Shown here one piece after another: positions 29,972 to 38,135 of a stretch of DNA of 64,000 nt (within the stretch, counting starts at the first letter, position 1; the number at the start of each line of letters is the position of its first letter). The stretch comes from Chlamydiota bacterium (GTDB lineage Bacteria; Auribacterota; Tritonobacteria; UBA1439), in NCBI GenBank assembly GCA_012729785.1, contig JAAYCL010000036.1, positions 91,646-155,645 of the forward strand. The letters run 5' to 3'. The notes below the pieces were generated by a model that saw only the letters and a list, made by a program, of their open reading frames with translations, was not told where the DNA came from and did not search any database. The position numbers and the translations under genes were made by a program.

Positions 29972-31456
29972 TCAGAGCTTCTTGAGCAGCCCGGTCCGCT
30001 CGTTGAACTCCGTGATCAACGCGTCGATCTCGTCCGCCTGGCCCTGGATCCGGTCCCAGTAGGCCGGGTAGTCGTACCACTGGGCGTTGAGCTCCTTGAG
30101 CTCGCGCCCCTGCTGCTCGATCCAGGTGTAGTACTTCAGGTTGTGGACGCGCTTGCGGTCCCAGTACCCGAGCTCGGCCATCCGGTCCGTCGTGACAGCC
30201 ATCAGACAGCGGTGGTAGTCGCGCGCCGCGTCGAGCTCGGTGTAGGCCCCGAACTGCTCGCGGTACTCCGTGACGCGGCTCCCGTAGAGTTCCATCGAGT
30301 CGGTGAGGACCGTCAAGACGACGTCGTGGGCCCCGAGCTCGTACCATTTTGCGAACTTGATGGCGGAGAGGATGTTGCCGACGCCCGAGATCCCGATCAG
30401 GTCGAGGCGGTCGATGCACGCCTTCGACACCCCCTGCTTTTTGAGGTACTCGCGGCCGGACGGCTCGTTGAAGAGCCGGATGACGTTCACGCAGTCGTTG
30501 TCGTCGGCGGCGATGATCATGTCGGTGTTCCGCATGTTGTGGATCCAGGGGACGTGCTTGTCGCCGATCCCCTCGATCCGGTGCCCGCCGAAGCCGTTGA
30601 GGAGGAGCGTCGGGCACTGCCACGCTTCGCCGGCGGCGATCTTGCTGGTCGGGAAGCGCTTCTTGAGGTAGTCGCCGGCGGCGATCGTCCCGGCGGATCC
30701 GGTCGTGAGGACAACGCCCGCATACCGGTCGCCGTTCCGCATCTCCTTCTTCAGCACCTCCTCCATCGCGTGGCCGGTGACCTCGTAGTGCCAGAGGTGG
30801 TTGCCGAACTCGTCGAACTGATTGAAGATGACGATATCGTCCTTGCGCGTCCTGCGCAGCTCCCAGCACTTGTCGTAGATCTCCTTGACGTTCGACTCGC
30901 CGCCGGGCGTGGCGATGACCTCGCCGGCGACCTGCTTCAGCCACTCGAAGCGTTCCTTGCTCATCTCCTCGGGGAGGATGGCGATCGACTCGCAGGCGAG
31001 GAGATGGGAGTCGTAGGCCCCGCCGCGGCAGTAGTTGCCGGTGGAGGGCCAGACGGCCTTCTGGGCGGTCGGGTCGAACTGCCCGGTGACGAGGCGCGGG
31101 ACGAGGCAGCCGAAGCTCGCCCCGACCTTGTGCGCCCCGGTCGGGAACCATTTGCCCACGAGGCAGATGATGCGCGCCTCCGTCCCGGTGAGCTCCTTCG
31201 GGAGCTCGAGGTGGTTGACGCCGCCGTAGAGGCCGCCGTTCGCGACCGGTTCGTTTTTCCAGGTGATCCGGAAGAGGTTGACGGAGTCGAAGTCCCAGAG
31301 GCCGGTCTTCTTCAGGCGCGCCTTGATCTTGGCGGGGACGCGCGACGGGTCTTTCTGCTCCTTGAAGGTCGGGATGATGATGTTGCGCTCCCTGCAGCGC
31401 TGGACCGCCTTCTCCAGCTTCTTCTTGTCGACCTTCAGGTCAATCATGCCGATCAT
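29972..31456 (-). CDS. PLP-dependent enzyme, tryptophan-synthase-beta/cysteine-synthase fold
   Basis: 494 residues of the fold type II PLP family. The PLP-lysine region is GAHKVGASFGCL, followed by the substrate loop STGNYCRGGAYDSHLLA, with the phosphate-binding glycine loop LTTGSAGTIAAGDY. It is longer than cysteine synthase and has a C-terminal extension. ATG 31456 follows GGAGGGG in the mRNA; the 23 residues upstream in frame overlap the leader and the -10 region. The role is unknown; a lyase or beta-replacement on an amino acid is likely. The divergent YgeW-carbamate kinase locus nearby makes a role in degrading a carbamoylated or diamino compound plausible. It has its own promoter with three operator-like repeats. 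Confidence 0.75.
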   Translation of the reverse strand: MIGMIDLKVDKKKLEKAVQRCRERNIIIPTFKEQKDPSRVPAKIKARLKKTGLWDFDSVNLFRITWKNEPVANGGLYGGVNHLELPKELTGTEARIICLVGKWFPTGAHKVGASFGCLVPRLVTGQFDPTAQKAVWPSTGNYCRGGAYDSHLLACESIAILPEEMSKERFEWLKQVAGEVIATPGGESNVKEIYDKCWELRRTRKDDIVIFNQFDEFGNHLWHYEVTGHAMEEVLKKEMRNGDRYAGVVLTTGSAGTIAAGDYLKKRFPTSKIAAGEAWQCPTLLLNGFGGHRIEGIGDKHVPWIHNMRNTDMIIAADDNDCVNVIRLFNEPSGREYLKKQGVSKACIDRLDLIGISGVGNILSAIKFAKWYELGAHDVVLTVLTDSMELYGSRVTEYREQFGAYTELDAARDYHRCLMAVTTDRMAELGYWDRKRVHNLKYYTWIEQQGRELKELNAQWYDYPAYWDRIQGQADEIDALITEFNERTGLLKKL

Positions 31457-31515: not shown

Positions 31516-31544
31516 ATATTAGCACAGGTGCGCCTGATACTCAA
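31516..31544 (-). promoter_or_regulatory. Sigma70-type promoter of the PLP-enzyme gene
   Basis: Read on the minus strand: TTGAGT (31544-31539), 17-base spacer, TAATAT (31521-31516). Transcription should start near 31509, giving a leader of about 50 bases that contains a small CCCGC/GCGGG hairpin ahead of the ribosome site. Confidence 0.75.
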
Positions 31545-31568
31545 CATCCATGGCGGCGACTGTCGTTT

Positions 31569-31655
31569 AAGATTCAAAAGTGCACACCTTTTCAAGGATT
31601 TAAGGTTGAAAAGTGCACACCTTTTTAAGGATTTGAGGTTGAAAGGTGCACACCT
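31569..31655 (-). repeat. Three tandem 33-bp repeats with palindromic cores upstream of the PLP-enzyme promoter
   Basis: Units start at 31569, 31602 and 31635; the third is partial. Each carries a GTGCAC core (31580, 31613, 31646) inside an imperfect palindrome AAAAG-TGCACAC-CTTTT, or in copy 3 the perfect AGGTG-TG-CACCT when read on the minus strand. The block is AT-rich in a GC-rich region and centres at about -74, -107 and -140 from the predicted start of transcription. It looks like a phased operator array. It could be read as coding in several frames (unit length divisible by 3), but no ribosome site supports a protein. Confidence 0.7.
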
Positions 31656-31739
31656 GGAAAGTGCCATAATCCACGCCACGAAAGGAAGAGGGTATGGCGC
31701 GGATCCATGCCGCCTGTTCACGGCTCCCGCGCGGGGCAC

Positions 31740-33375: not shown

Positions 33376-33447
33376 TGCGCCTTCATGGGGCGCGCGCGGT
33401 GCGCGTTCGTGGGGGGGCGCGGGAGAAGAGAGGAGAGGGAGGGCCAC

Positions 33448-34464
33448 ATGGCAACACTGACCGGCAGGGACCTGCTCTGCACGCAGGATTGGGACATCAC
33501 GGAGCTCACGAAGGTGCTCGAGCTCGCGGAGGATATGCAGAAGAATCGGTTCAGCAAGAAGTACACGAGTCTCCTCGAGAACAAAACCTTCTTCATGTTC
33601 TTCTACAACCCCTCCGTCCGTACCCGGCAGAGCTTCGAGTGCGCCGCGACCGAGCTCGGCGGTCACGCGCAGTTTCTCGAGCCGACGTCGATGCGCCTCA
33701 AGACGGCCAGGACCGCCGGCGAGACGGTCGAGGACGCGGCGAACGTGATGAGCCGCTACGCCGTTGGCCTCGGCATCCGCATCCTCGAGGACAAGATCTC
33801 CTACTACGGCCAGGGGCACGAGCTCCTCGAGGAGTACGCGAAATGGGCTCGCATCCCGATCGTCAGCATGGCCCACGACAAGTTCCACCCGTGCCAGGGG
33901 CTCGCGGACATCATGGGCCTCCGCCGCCACCTCGGGAAGAACCTCAAGGGCAAGAAGCTGGTCCAGGTATGGGGACGGGGAGCCCTCGCCCGGTCCTGGT
34001 GCTCGGTGCAGGAGAGCCTCCTCGTCTCCTCCCGCTTCGGGATGGACGTCACGCTCGCCTACCCGGAGGGGTACGACCTGGACCCCGCGGTGATCGAGGC
34101 GGTCAAGGGCAACTGCGCCAGGAACAAGTCGAAGTTCGAGATCACGCACGACGCGCGTGAGGGGTACCGCGACGCGCACGTGGTCTACTCCCGCAACTGG
34201 GTGACGCCGGAGGCCTACAAGTCGGGCCATCTCGACAAGCAGAGCGAGATCGAGAAGGCGAGCAAGCACACGGAGTGGATCTGCGACGACGAGAAGATGA
34301 AGCTGACCAACGACGCCCTCTTCACGCACCCGATGCCCGTCGACCGCGGGAGCGAGGTGACGGACGAGATCGCCAGCGGGAAGCGTTCGATCATCTACGA
34401 CGTTGCGGAGAACCGCCTGCACGTGCAGAAGGCGATCATGGCCCTCACGATGGCGGGACTCTGA
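33448..34464 (+). CDS. ygeW: YgeW-type carbamoyltransferase
   Basis: 338 residues of the aspartate/ornithine carbamoyltransferase fold. The carbamoyl-phosphate loop is NPSVRTRQSFE (STRTR-like with SVRTR). HPCQGLADIMGL (HPxQ motif), a deep-knot region with VWGRGALARSWC, and THPMPVDRGSEVTDE near the C-terminus match YgeW and related knotted transcarbamylases rather than PyrB or ArgF. The amine acceptor of this family is debated (ureido compounds; reverse reaction in purine or ureide breakdown has been proposed). A later carbamate kinase gene fits a catabolic route yielding ATP from carbamoyl phosphate. ATG 33448 follows AGGAGAGGGAGGG; the upstream in-frame ATG is not supported. Confidence 0.82.
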   Translation: MATLTGRDLLCTQDWDITELTKVLELAEDMQKNRFSKKYTSLLENKTFFMFFYNPSVRTRQSFECAATELGGHAQFLEPTSMRLKTARTAGETVEDAANVMSRYAVGLGIRILEDKISYYGQGHELLEEYAKWARIPIVSMAHDKFHPCQGLADIMGLRRHLGKNLKGKKLVQVWGRGALARSWCSVQESLLVSSRFGMDVTLAYPEGYDLDPAVIEAVKGNCARNKSKFEITHDAREGYRDAHVVYSRNWVTPEAYKSGHLDKQSEIEKASKHTEWICDDEKMKLTNDALFTHPMPVDRGSEVTDEIASGKRSIIYDVAENRLHVQKAIMALTMAGL

Positions 34465-34496
34465 GCGTCGGCGAAACAACGGGAGGGCGGGCGATC

Positions 34497-34763
34497 GTGG
34501 ACCCGAATACGGTGCAACCCTGGATGCCGTGGGCCGTGGTCGCCACCCTCCTGCTGTTGGGGGTCTGGATGCGGATGGGTTCGTCGCTCCTCCCCCTCGG
34601 CGTTGCGGCGGTGGTGGCGCTGGCGGAGGCGGTGGCGGGGTACGGGCTCGGGGTGCAGATCGCCAGTTTCGCGACGGCGTCGTGCATCCTGGCGCTCCTG
34701 CAGTGGGCGTACGGCCGCAGACGCGAGGCGGGAACGGCACGCCGCGGCGAGGATCGGAGGTAG
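34497..34763 (+). CDS. Small membrane protein, NfeD-like transmembrane part
   Basis: 88 residues with three hydrophobic stretches (WAVVATLLLLGVWM, LLPLGVAAVVALAEAVAGYGLG, ASFATASCILALLQW) and a basic tail. The layout resembles the membrane domain of NfeD proteins without their soluble OB-fold domain. The GTG start at 34497 follows GGGAGGGCGG at 34481-34490. It sits between the carbamoyltransferase and carbamate kinase genes, so a role in uptake or membrane attachment for that pathway is conceivable but unproven. Confidence 0.6.
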   Translation: MDPNTVQPWMPWAVVATLLLLGVWMRMGSSLLPLGVAAVVALAEAVAGYGLGVQIASFATASCILALLQWAYGRRREAGTARRGEDRR

Positions 34764-34819
34764 GTTTCCGGCCTCCGGCCAGGCCTGCGTGAAACACCTC
34801 AGGAAGGAGTGCAGCATCG

Positions 34820-35791
34820 ATGAGGAGGATCATCGTCGTGGCGTTGGGCGGAAACGCCATCAAGCAGGCCGACGAGAGGGGGACGGCCGAGGAGCAGTTC
34901 AAAAACGTCGAGACCACGTGCGCGCAGCTCGTGAGCATGCTCAGATTCGGGCACCGGCTCGTCATCACGCACGGAAACGGTCCGCAGGCGGGGAACCTTC
35001 TCCTCCAGCAGGAGGGCGCGCTGGGAGAGGTGCCGGCCCAGCCGCTCGATATCGTCGGAGCGATGACCCAGGGGCAGATCGGTTACATGTTCCAGCAGAC
35101 GATGCAGAACATGCTCTGGAAGGAGAAGCTGCCGCTCCCGGTCGTCTCGATCGTCAACCAGGTGCTCGTCAGCGAGGACGATCCGGACTATCGGGACCCG
35201 ACGAAGCCGGTCGGCCCGTTCTACACCGAGGACCAGGCCGCGAAACTGCGGCGCGAGCGCCCGGACTACGTCATCAAGGAGGTCAAGCCCAAAAGCGTGG
35301 CGAAACGGTTCCGCCGCGTGGTGGCATCCCCCGATCCGATCCGCAACATCGAGTACGTCGCGATCCGTCGGATGGTGGACGCCGGCATCGTCGTCATCGC
35401 CTCGGGCGGAGGCGGCGTGCCGGTCGTGTACGATACAAACGACAACCTTCGCGGCACCGCGGCGGTCATCGACAAGGACAAGGCCGGCGAGCGCCTCGCG
35501 GAGGTCGTGGGCGCCGACATCTTCCTCGTCTTGACGGACGTCGATGCGGCCCGCATCCACTTCGGCACCCCGCAGGAGAAGCCGGTCCGGACCGTCACCG
35601 TCTCCGAAATGAAGAGGCTCTGCGAGGAGGGGCACTTCAAGGCCGGCAGCATGGGGCCGAAGGTCCTCGCCGCGATCCGCTTCGTCGAGTGGGGCGGCGA
35701 CTGCGCCATCATCACCTCGCTCGACAAGGCCGTCGAGGCCCTCGTCGGCAGGGCCGGGACGCGCATCATCCCGGACCCGGTGAAGGAATGA
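34820..35791 (+). CDS. arcC: Carbamate kinase
   Basis: 323 residues of the amino-acid-kinase fold, catalysing ADP plus carbamoyl phosphate to ATP plus carbamate, or the reverse. It begins IIVVALGGNAIKQ and contains ITHGNGPQAGNLL, VIASGGGGVPVV, a Lys-rich nucleotide segment (IDKDKAGERLA), VLTDVDAARIHF and GSMGPKVLAAI. The ribosome site AGGAAGGAG lies at 34801-34809. Between two carbamoyltransferase genes, it most likely harvests ATP from carbamoyl phosphate released in amino-acid or ureide fermentation. Confidence 0.92.
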   Translation: MRRIIVVALGGNAIKQADERGTAEEQFKNVETTCAQLVSMLRFGHRLVITHGNGPQAGNLLLQQEGALGEVPAQPLDIVGAMTQGQIGYMFQQTMQNMLWKEKLPLPVVSIVNQVLVSEDDPDYRDPTKPVGPFYTEDQAAKLRRERPDYVIKEVKPKSVAKRFRRVVASPDPIRNIEYVAIRRMVDAGIVVIASGGGGVPVVYDTNDNLRGTAAVIDKDKAGERLAEVVGADIFLVLTDVDAARIHFGTPQEKPVRTVTVSEMKRLCEEGHFKAGSMGPKVLAAIRFVEWGGDCAIITSLDKAVEALVGRAGTRIIPDPVKE

Positions 35792-35885
35792 TCCCGCGCC
35801 CCACGCGGGGCGGCGGGGGGGCGCGATCGCAGTCGGGGGCCGGGGGCGGGGGCGCCCTCGGCCCCCGTCGCGTAAGGGTGGGGAG

Positions 35886-37124
35886 ATGAACCACGTTCTG
35901 GGGTTGCGGTGCGCCGGGTGCGGGAAGGAGTTCGACGCCCGGGGGATGACGTACGTCTGCGGCGCCTGCGGGAAGAACCTCGACGTCGTCTACGACTACA
36001 AGGCCGCCGGGAAGACGCTCACGCGCGCGGCGCTCGCCGGATGCGCCGACCGTTCGATCTGGCGCTATCGAGATCTGTACCCGCTCGAGGGGCAGGCGGG
36101 CGTGATGCCGCTCCAGGTCGGCTGGTCGCCGCTCTACCGGGCGGACCGGCTCGCCGGGGCCGTCGGGGCGGGCGCGCTCTGGGTGAAGGATGACGGGCGG
36201 AACCCCAGCGCCTCGTTCAAGGATCGGGCGAGTGCGGTCGCGGTCGCCAAGGCCGTCGAACTCGGTTTCGACAAGATCTGCGGCGCCTCCACCGGAAACG
36301 CCGCCTCGTCGACCGCGTGCCTCTGCGCGAGCATCGGCCTGCGCCCCATCATCTTCGTCCCCGAGACCGCCCCGAAGGCCAAGATCGCGCAGCTCCTCGT
36401 CTTCGGCGCGAAGGTCTTCGCCGTGAAGGGGACGTACGACGAGGCGTTCGACCTGTGCCTCCAAGCCGCCGAGGAGTACGGCTGGTACAACCGGAACACC
36501 GGCTACAACCCGTACACGCGCGAGGGGAAGAAGAGCTGCTCGTTCGAGATCTGTGAACAGCTGGGCTGGGAGGTCCCGGACCTCGTTCTGGTGCCGGTGG
36601 GCGACGGCAACATCCTCAGCGGGATCTGGAAAGGGTTCCGCGACCTGCACGGCGTGGGGCTCATAGACCGGCTCCCCCGCCTCGTCGCGGTCCAGTCCTC
36701 CAGGAGCAGCGCGATCGCCGACGCGGTCAACGGCGACGGCGTCGTCAGGCCGGTCAGGGCGACCACGATCGCCGACTCCATCTCGGTCGATTTGCCTCGG
36801 GACGGCGAGATGGCGGTCCGGGCGGTGCGCGACTCCACGGGGATGGCGGTGACGGTGACCGACGAGGAGATCCTCGAGGCCGTCCCGCTCCTCGCCAGGG
36901 AATGCGGCGTCTTCGCGGAGCCGGCCGGCGCCGCGAGCGTCGCGGGCCTGAAGAAGCTCGCCGGGGAGGGCGGGATCCGCGGCTGCGAGCGCGTCGTCTG
37001 CCTCGTCACCGGCAACGGCCTCAAGGACGTGGACACGGCGATGCGGATCGCCGGGAAGACGGTGCCGATCGCGCCCGACCTCGGGGCCCTGAAGAAGGCG
37101 GTCGCGGCGGCGAAGCTGGCGTAG
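35886..37124 (+). CDS. thrC: Threonine synthase
   Basis: 412 residues; forms threonine from O-phosphohomoserine. An N-terminal zinc ribbon (RCAGCGKEF, TYVCGACGKNL) precedes the PLP fold. The PLP Lys is in NPSASFKDRASAVAV, the Asn loop in GASTGNAASSTA, and the C-terminal SLPVTGNGLKD-like stretch (CLVTGNGLKDVD) is characteristic. The ATG directly follows a GGGTGGGGAG purine run. Close relatives of this fold include diaminopropionate ammonia-lyase and threonine deaminase, and the carbamoyl-linked neighbourhood leaves some room for a different substrate. The zinc ribbon and overall pattern favour ThrC. Confidence 0.85.
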   Translation: MNHVLGLRCAGCGKEFDARGMTYVCGACGKNLDVVYDYKAAGKTLTRAALAGCADRSIWRYRDLYPLEGQAGVMPLQVGWSPLYRADRLAGAVGAGALWVKDDGRNPSASFKDRASAVAVAKAVELGFDKICGASTGNAASSTACLCASIGLRPIIFVPETAPKAKIAQLLVFGAKVFAVKGTYDEAFDLCLQAAEEYGWYNRNTGYNPYTREGKKSCSFEICEQLGWEVPDLVLVPVGDGNILSGIWKGFRDLHGVGLIDRLPRLVAVQSSRSSAIADAVNGDGVVRPVRATTIADSISVDLPRDGEMAVRAVRDSTGMAVTVTDEEILEAVPLLARECGVFAEPAGAASVAGLKKLAGEGGIRGCERVVCLVTGNGLKDVDTAMRIAGKTVPIAPDLGALKKAVAAAKLA

Positions 37125-37196
37125 CGCGGCGCGGCCGCCGATCGACCGGATCCGCGGGAATCCGCGGCGGGGCGGGCGCTCGATGGAGGATTCGGG

Positions 37197-38135
37197 ATGA
37201 AGGTGAAGGACCTGGTCGCGATCTCCGATCTGTCGCGCGGCGAGATCCACGAGATCTTCGCCGAAACGAAGCGGTTGAAGGACGCCCTCCGCGCGGGGAC
37301 GCCGACCCCGGTGCTCGCGGGCAAGGCGCTCGGGATGATCTTCAACAAGCCGTCGACGCGCACGCGCGTCTCGTTCGAGGTCGGGATGTTCCAGCTCGGC
37401 GGGCACGCCCTCCACCTGGGTATGGGCGACCTCCAGCTCGGGCGCGGCGAGACGATCGCCGACACCGCCCGGACGCTCTCCCGCTACCTCGACGGCATCA
37501 TGATCAGGACGTTCAGGCACCAGGACGTGGCGGACCTGGCGCGGCACGCGTCGATCCCGGTGATCAACGGCCTTACCGACCTGAGCCACCCGTGCCAGAT
37601 ACTCGGGGACGTCTACACGATCGCCGAGCAGCGCGGGCTCGATCCCGCCGAGCCCGACCTAGGCGGGGTCTCCGTCGCCTTCATCGGGGACGGGAACAAC
37701 GTCGCGAACTCGTGGGTCGAGGCCGCGGCCGCGCTCGGCTTCTCGTTCGTCATCTGCCCCCCGTCGGGCTACGAGCCAAACGGGGCGATATGGGCCGCCT
37801 CGGAGAAGGCGGGGGCGAAAATCCTTCTCGAGCGCGATCCGGCGAAGGCGGTCGCCGGCGCCGACATCGTCTACACCGACGTCTGGGCGAGCATGGGGCA
37901 GGAGAAGGAGCGGGAGGAGCGGTTGAAGGTATTCGGCCCGTTCCAGGTCAACGGGCGCCTGATGACGAAGGCGAAGCGGGGCGCGAAGGTGATGCACTGT
38001 CTGCCCGCGCACCGCGGCGAGGAGGCGACCGACGAGGTCCTCGACGGGCCCGCCTCGATCATCTTCGACCAGGCGGAGAACCGGCTGCACGTCCAGAAGG
38101 GCGTCATGTCGCTCCTGATGGGGGCGCGAAGATAG
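37197..38135 (+). CDS. argF: Ornithine carbamoyltransferase
   Basis: 312 residues. The carbamoyl-phosphate loop KPSTRTRVSFEVG, the second-substrate segment FRHQDVADLARHA, HPCQILGDVYTI, the ornithine loop YTDVWASMGQEKE and the C-terminal MHCLPAHRGEEATDEV mark it clearly as ornithine type. GGAGG precedes the ATG. With carbamate kinase in the same run of genes it could act catabolically (arginine deiminase style), though no arginine deiminase gene is visible, or anabolically in arginine synthesis. It is a true second carbamoyltransferase, distinct from the YgeW type upstream. Confidence 0.93.
   Translation: MKVKDLVAISDLSRGEIHEIFAETKRLKDALRAGTPTPVLAGKALGMIFNKPSTRTRVSFEVGMFQLGGHALHLGMGDLQLGRGETIADTARTLSRYLDGIMIRTFRHQDVADLARHASIPVINGLTDLSHPCQILGDVYTIAEQRGLDPAEPDLGGVSVAFIGDGNNVANSWVEAAAALGFSFVICPPSGYEPNGAIWAASEKAGAKILLERDPAKAVAGADIVYTDVWASMGQEKEREERLKVFGPFQVNGRLMTKAKRGAKVMHCLPAHRGEEATDEVLDGPASIIFDQAENRLHVQKGVMSLLMGARR

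Follow-up and report, generated by a model that had tools for sequence, protein, structure and literature searches.

Insertion sequences of the IS1202 family are characterized by a glutamine seven residues after the glutamate of the DDE motif, by TGT/ACA ends and by an extra inner copy of the terminal repeat (PMC10132070). Elements of its long-TSD group measure 1327–1747 bp in 18 of the 21 other listed members, encode transposases of 394–507 aa and make target duplications of more than 15 bp (16–28 bp in the published table; PMC10132070). Harmer, Pong and Hall (2023) sought the target of this group and found none (PMC10132070). Insertion 15–17 bp upstream of the -35 box of sigmaA promoters has been described for the TnGBS ICEs, for ISLre2 (p-MULT 3) and for part of the ISKra4 group (p-MULT 4) (Guerillot et al. 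2014, PMC3942029). These p-MULT elements have Mutator-like transposases and 8–9 bp duplications, and contact with the RNA polymerase initiation complex has been proposed for them (PMC3942029).

The window, i.e., the whole stretch of 64,000 nucleotides analyzed here, contains three 33-nt units directly upstream of a promoter, in exact register (31566–31598, 31599–31631 and 31632–31664; start-to-start distances 33 and 33), as the first-pass annotation had described. Compared with the first unit, the identities are 100%, 91% and 67%, the third diverging in its last 9 bases. Every unit contains AAAAGTGCACACCT or AAAGGTGCACACCT, with the core GTGCAC. The repeats had been called palindromic; this holds for the core, which is the only perfect palindrome in the 33-bp unit, whereas the unit as a whole is a direct repeat, not a strong inverted repeat. 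In our opinion, the array is the left end of a degenerate IS, the relatives of which land 15–17 bp upstream of -35 boxes, and we give this explanation as a whole a probability of about 0.88. All of the evidence is computational. The features of the locus are collected in Table 1.

Table 1. Features of the IS end and the adjacent promoter in the window
Feature	Position	Strand	Basis and remarks
Three 33-bp direct repeats	31566..31664	+	Repeat comparison; sister copies C6 and C35 have two; transposase binding probable
Solo IS left end, relative of the long-TSD IS1202 group	31561..31737	+	Right limit approximate: similarity to the C6 copy fades
Left terminal inverted repeat, 5'-TGTCGTTTAAGATTCAAAAGTGCAC	31561..31585	+	PWM score 34.7, within the range of intact elements
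Decayed transposase gene start (ATGGCGCGGATCCATGCC...)	31694..31737	+	ATG at 31694; C6 copy ATGGCACAGATTCACAAGC = MAQIHKRFTDS
16-bp stretch between IS end and -35 box	31545..31560	.	Judging from relatives, presumably one of the two copies of the target duplication
-35 box TTGAGT of host promoter	31539..31544	-	Sequence and orthologue comparison
-10 box TAATAT of host promoter	31516..31521	-	Sequence and orthologue comparison; 17 bp from the -35 box
PLP-dependent enzyme gene (PALP fold, cysteine-synthase-like)	29972..31456	-	Pfam PALP; ATG at 31456–31454; served by the promoter

The first line of evidence comes from other copies of the array. Matches were present in only two of the 98 genomes searched, namely the genome of the window itself and that of a member of the same genus (G001), where the match lies at a place unrelated to the PLP-gene locus. 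The genome of the window holds two further matches (C6:34586–34694 and C35:48130–48216; 87–92% identity). Downstream of the repeats, all copies share GGAAAGTGCCATAATCCACGCC, which reads GGAAAGCGCCATGATCCATGCC in the diverged G001 copy. At C6 this shared part continues as an ORF that begins with MAQIHKRFTDSRVKELLQRYDEQD and is interrupted; behind the break lies a piece with transposase C-terminal sequence. The C6 copy is an internally deleted element of 400 bp that retains both ends and the N- and C-terminal pieces of the transposase; its flanks, GCACAAAATTCAAAAG and GCACAAAAATCAAAAG, form a 16-bp target duplication with one mismatch. The C35 copy is a solo left end, like that of the window. 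The same IS end with a transposase start is therefore present at multiple loci of this genome and at a single one in the sister species. No match was obtained when a plasmid collection was searched with the array DNA and with the transposase fragment.

The 33-bp repeats are the subterminal repeats of this IS end and probably the sites to which its transposase binds. No IS right end was found for the window copy; because this end and the second copy of the duplication are absent, we infer the insertion event of the window copy itself from its relatives. A deletion would have removed its right part, and its third repeat unit would be a later gain, most simply explained as a tandem duplication because the C6 and C35 copies have two. 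An IS21-type end was considered as well and rejected: matches to IstB in this genome are weak and none lies near the repeats, and the transposase is ISNCY/IS481-like.

The first-pass annotation had taken the repeats for operators at which a regulator of the PLP-enzyme gene would bind cooperatively, an interpretation that draws on the exact 33-bp phasing and on the position just upstream of the promoter. It had itself named dispersal of the repeats and absence upstream of orthologues as outcomes that would count against operators, and both were observed. The repeats recur at C6, at C35 and at the unrelated place in the same-genus genome, and the dispersed copies carry transposase coding sequence, with a target duplication at C6. 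Six relatives have an orthologue of the PLP gene; upstream DNA was readable for five of these, and the array is absent from all five. We regard the operator interpretation as very improbable. The promoter proposed in the same annotation has fared better: TTGAC(C/T), 17 bp and TA.... occur at the equivalent position in five of five readable orthologue upstream regions. Since the promoter is conserved and the array is absent from the orthologues, the IS came in next to an existing, older promoter. The closeness of array and promoter (16 bp between the IS end and the -35 box) is not accidental, because related IS were found at the same distance from promoters, as described below. Divergent from the PLP-enzyme gene, a cluster of carbamoyltransferase-like, carbamate-kinase-like, threonine-synthase-like and ornithine-carbamoyltransferase-like ORFs, named from their translations only, occupies 33385–38135 on the plus strand.

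It could be asked whether the relic has been co-opted, so that its AT-rich end alters the activity of the adjacent promoter, for instance in the manner of an UP element. The alpha-CTD zone is indeed where the end starts, some 16 bp upstream of the -35 box, and a near-perfect array has been kept while the remaining IS was lost. The copy at the PLP locus is, however, unique to its own genome, so that there is no conservation, and the C35 copy is also a solo left end, a state that needs no function. Co-option therefore seems unlikely to us.

The second line of evidence is the relationship of the element to a known family. An intact relative in genome G260 (L037) encodes a 419-aa transposase that aligns to both C6 pieces, and its ends are TGTCAGTTAAAATTTAAAAGTGCAC and, on the reverse strand, TGTTAGATAAAATTTAAAAGTGCAC. 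The best NCBIfam match is ISNCY_2 (NF033594) at 148 bits, under the 250-bit cut-off, followed by IS481 at 72 bits; NF033594 is the top family for every protein scanned, with scores of 123–148 bits, all below that curated cut-off. Pfam returned weak matches to rve/Mu-type integrase cores, and neither the Pfam nor the NCBIfam scans of the transposases gave a match to Mutator/Transposase_mut. Residues D154, D215, E268 and Q275 are invariant in the alignment of relatives, the glutamine lying at E+7. The outer ends are TGT...ACA in C6 and relatives, the left end of the window copy being TGTCG..., and in most relatives an extra inner copy of the terminal repeat is found near each end, with a spacing of 33 bp on the left and 22 bp on the right. 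Intact relatives, which exist in several bacterial groups, are about 1.42 kb (L049, L050) or 1.55 kb (L037) long. Judged by ends, repeat layout, transposase size and motif, and duplication length, the elements are related to the long-TSD group of the IS1202 family and would have an IS1202-type, TnsB-like DDE transposase.

The transposase profile matched no PDB sequence at E 0.01. A plasmid search with the full transposase P0001 yielded only distant relatives, mainly of the short-duplication, dif-targeting group, while the transposase of the distant element L096 retrieved no plasmid matches other than further ISNCY transposases, about 26% identical to it; these matches have no bearing on the target rule. 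MT836548 and L108 were read and set aside as not usable for the long-duplication group. A distant subgroup (L094, L095; about 30% identity) has several GTGAGATACAAGCCGAG repeats over some 250 bp near the left end. The right ends of this subgroup were partly read: the promoter rule set out below applies to L094 and to L096, a related element, but not clearly to L095.

The third line of evidence is the position of the relatives' insertions. The pattern of an IS end, 15 or 16 bp, TTGACA, 17 bp and TAnnnT was noted as a hypothesis while flanks were being read, before further insertions were collected from the genomes of the groups of two relatives, from relatives of a third, from solo ends (such as L057, found by an end-pattern search) and from viral contigs. 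The resulting set comprises 24 left and 31 right flanks, most of them from draft metagenome-assembled contigs; the promoters are predicted ones. Of the 24 left flanks, 17 have a match to TTGACA in at least five of six positions that starts 15–17 bp from the IS end (expected 0.35, p ~2e-26; background 0.49% per position and 1.5% per flank), as do 6 of the 31 right flanks (p 5e-6). Offsets 15, 16 and 17 account for seven, nine and one left flanks and for two, four and no right flanks, respectively, while no other offset from 0 to 59 exceeds two on either side. The left flanks read after the hypothesis had been formed fit in 12 of 17 cases (p 6e-19), and shuffled flanks gave a mean of 0.44 of 24 with a maximum of 4.

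Insertion occurs in either orientation, with the left end preferred: where both ends could be seen and a -35 box was present, ten copies have the left end toward the promoter and two the right end. Two of the exceptions at the left end, G546 and G648, arise because the IS is reversed, and both fit at the right end. No -35 box stands at the expected place in G712, G1044, the viral contig L116 and G1083 (right end). Of the viral contigs, L107 fits the rule and L116 does not; a second end pattern had no match in the viral contigs. In a separate case, near 139 at the right end of L036 (G260 C96), a TTGACA is found 17 bp beyond the end; it is directed toward the interior of the IS, contrary to the rule, and may be there by chance.

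A rival view would have the TTGACA belong to the IS, with a misplaced boundary, and its nearly fixed distance from the IS end could be read in this manner. We consider such an error scarcely credible. The 15–16 bp in between differ from site to site and recur at the other end, while TTGACA does not; six sites have their TTGACA outside the right end; and orthologues free of the IS have TTGAC at the same place.

Alignment on the -35 box was made for 25 sites, namely the 23 with a match of at least five of six, the window and C6, whose boxes (TTGAGT and TTGATC) each match TTGACA in four of six positions. A second signal appears at spacing 17, where matches to TATAAT average 3.28 vs. about 2.0 at most other spacings. 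A -10 box (at least four of six, spacing 16–18) accompanies 17 of 25 sites, as compared with 39 of 160 control sites (Fisher p 3e-5), the controls being other exact TTGACA sites in the same loci, not restricted to intergenic DNA. A gene start with a ribosome-binding site follows within about 350 bp in 16 of 25 sites vs. 51 of 137 controls (p 0.012); the L050 site, which is outside this count, points toward a 16S rRNA gene by our own reading of the sequence. On these grounds the target would be the promoter, not only the hexamer. Survival bias may favor intergenic sites, yet it cannot by itself yield a fixed offset of 15–16 bp.

The length of the target duplication gives the geometry of insertion. 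In all six insertions for which both values are available, the duplication is as long as the offset of the -35 box: 15 and 15 in G291a and G648, 16 and 16 in G292, G546, G418a and C6. The 16-bp duplications are exact in G292 and G546 and match at 15 of 16 positions in C6 and G418a; those of 15 bp (G291a, G648 and also G712) fall just below the published range. Several copies with both ends have no duplication, perhaps after recombination. The equality of duplication length and offset implies a cut at the upstream edge of the -35 box and a second one 15–16 bp further upstream. The core promoter consequently stays intact after insertion. The stretch just upstream of the -35 box is where the C-terminal domain of the alpha subunit contacts promoter DNA.

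Two loci show more complex arrangements. In L085 (G418 C181, near 151–190 and 1552), a second, similar IS end directly follows the 16-bp duplication of the first, so that one promoter target seems to have been used twice. In L090 (G383 C7), near 1462, the flanks of the two ends are unrelated and TTGACA-17-TATTAT lies at offset 31 from the right end, which suggests that two copies at different promoters have recombined or that the event is nested.

How the transposase might pick promoters can be envisaged in two ways: it would dock on promoter-bound RNA polymerase, or it would read a strong -35 box directly. In the former case, a TnsB/IS481-like lineage would have come convergently to dock on the polymerase, inserting 15–17 bp upstream of the -35 box with cuts 15–16 bp apart; the docking surface could be sigma region 4 or the alpha CTD, the DNA of which falls within the duplicated stretch. 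We hold this mechanism to be credible, at somewhat less than even odds. Direct readout of TTGACA, with the link to promoters a by-product of intergenic survival, is a serious rival, which we find possible though rather doubtful. TTGA is invariant in the 25 aligned sites (2.0 bits) and much tighter than the -10 box, a contrast to be read with the fact that the sites were partly chosen by their match; moreover, in a 22-bp register, the terminal TGTCA of the IS is similar to TGTCAA, the complement of the -35 box. Against direct readout stand the enrichment of -10 boxes at 17 bp over control TTGACA sites, two insertions (G712 and G1044) with a poor -35 box yet good -10-like boxes in register (TATAGT and TAGAAT), and the use of the same 15–17 bp distance by the unrelated p-MULT elements (PMC3942029). 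By either route, a cut beside the -35 box would spare the core promoter and do little harm, which would allow the element to persist.

The flanks answer a question left by the 2023 description of the IS1202 family, namely what its long-duplication half targets. If the explanation is right, two transposase lineages that differ in their chemistry insert at one and the same distance from the -35 box, which would suggest that both dock on the same surface of the bacterial transcription machinery. The unusual length of the duplication and the persistence of the IS at low harm would then be explained too, and the rule could serve to find strong promoters in the genomes of uncultured bacteria. At the same time, an array that is a transposon relic is a warning against reading phased repeats near promoters as operators. 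In the open-access journal papers searched, no earlier report of promoter targeting by IS1202-type elements was found; such targeting by TnsB-like elements appears, provisionally, to be new.

Compared with the described long-TSD elements (ISCARN53, ISCARN62, ISTde1; PMC10132070), the present ones have the same TGT...ACA ends, imperfect terminal repeats with an extra internal copy, a length of about 1.4–1.6 kb, a single DDE transposase of about 400–425 aa with glutamine seven residues after the catalytic glutamate, and a long duplication, 15–16 bp here and 16–28 bp in the published elements. They differ in their target, a sigma70-type promoter whose -35 box directly adjoins the duplication, and in the spacing of the left-end repeats, 33 bp instead of 22 bp, with three repeats in the window. 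The ISAjo2 group of the IS1202 family, which hunts dif/pdif sites, belongs to the same superfamily and likewise places its duplication between the IS end and a recognized, protein-bound element; that element is, however, the XerC site of dif, the duplication is 5 bp, and the proteins are only about 25–27% identical to the intact relative P0001. With the p-MULT elements (TnGBS/ISLre2/ISKra4) the present ones share insertion 15–17 bp upstream of the -35 box and an oriented preference, which is seen in most p-MULT. The p-MULT transposases are of the Mutator type, with 8–9 bp duplications and a terminal C, whereas those described here are IS481/TnsB-like, with duplications of 15–16 bp and TGT/ACA ends. 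The present elements thus work like p-MULT but are not members of it.
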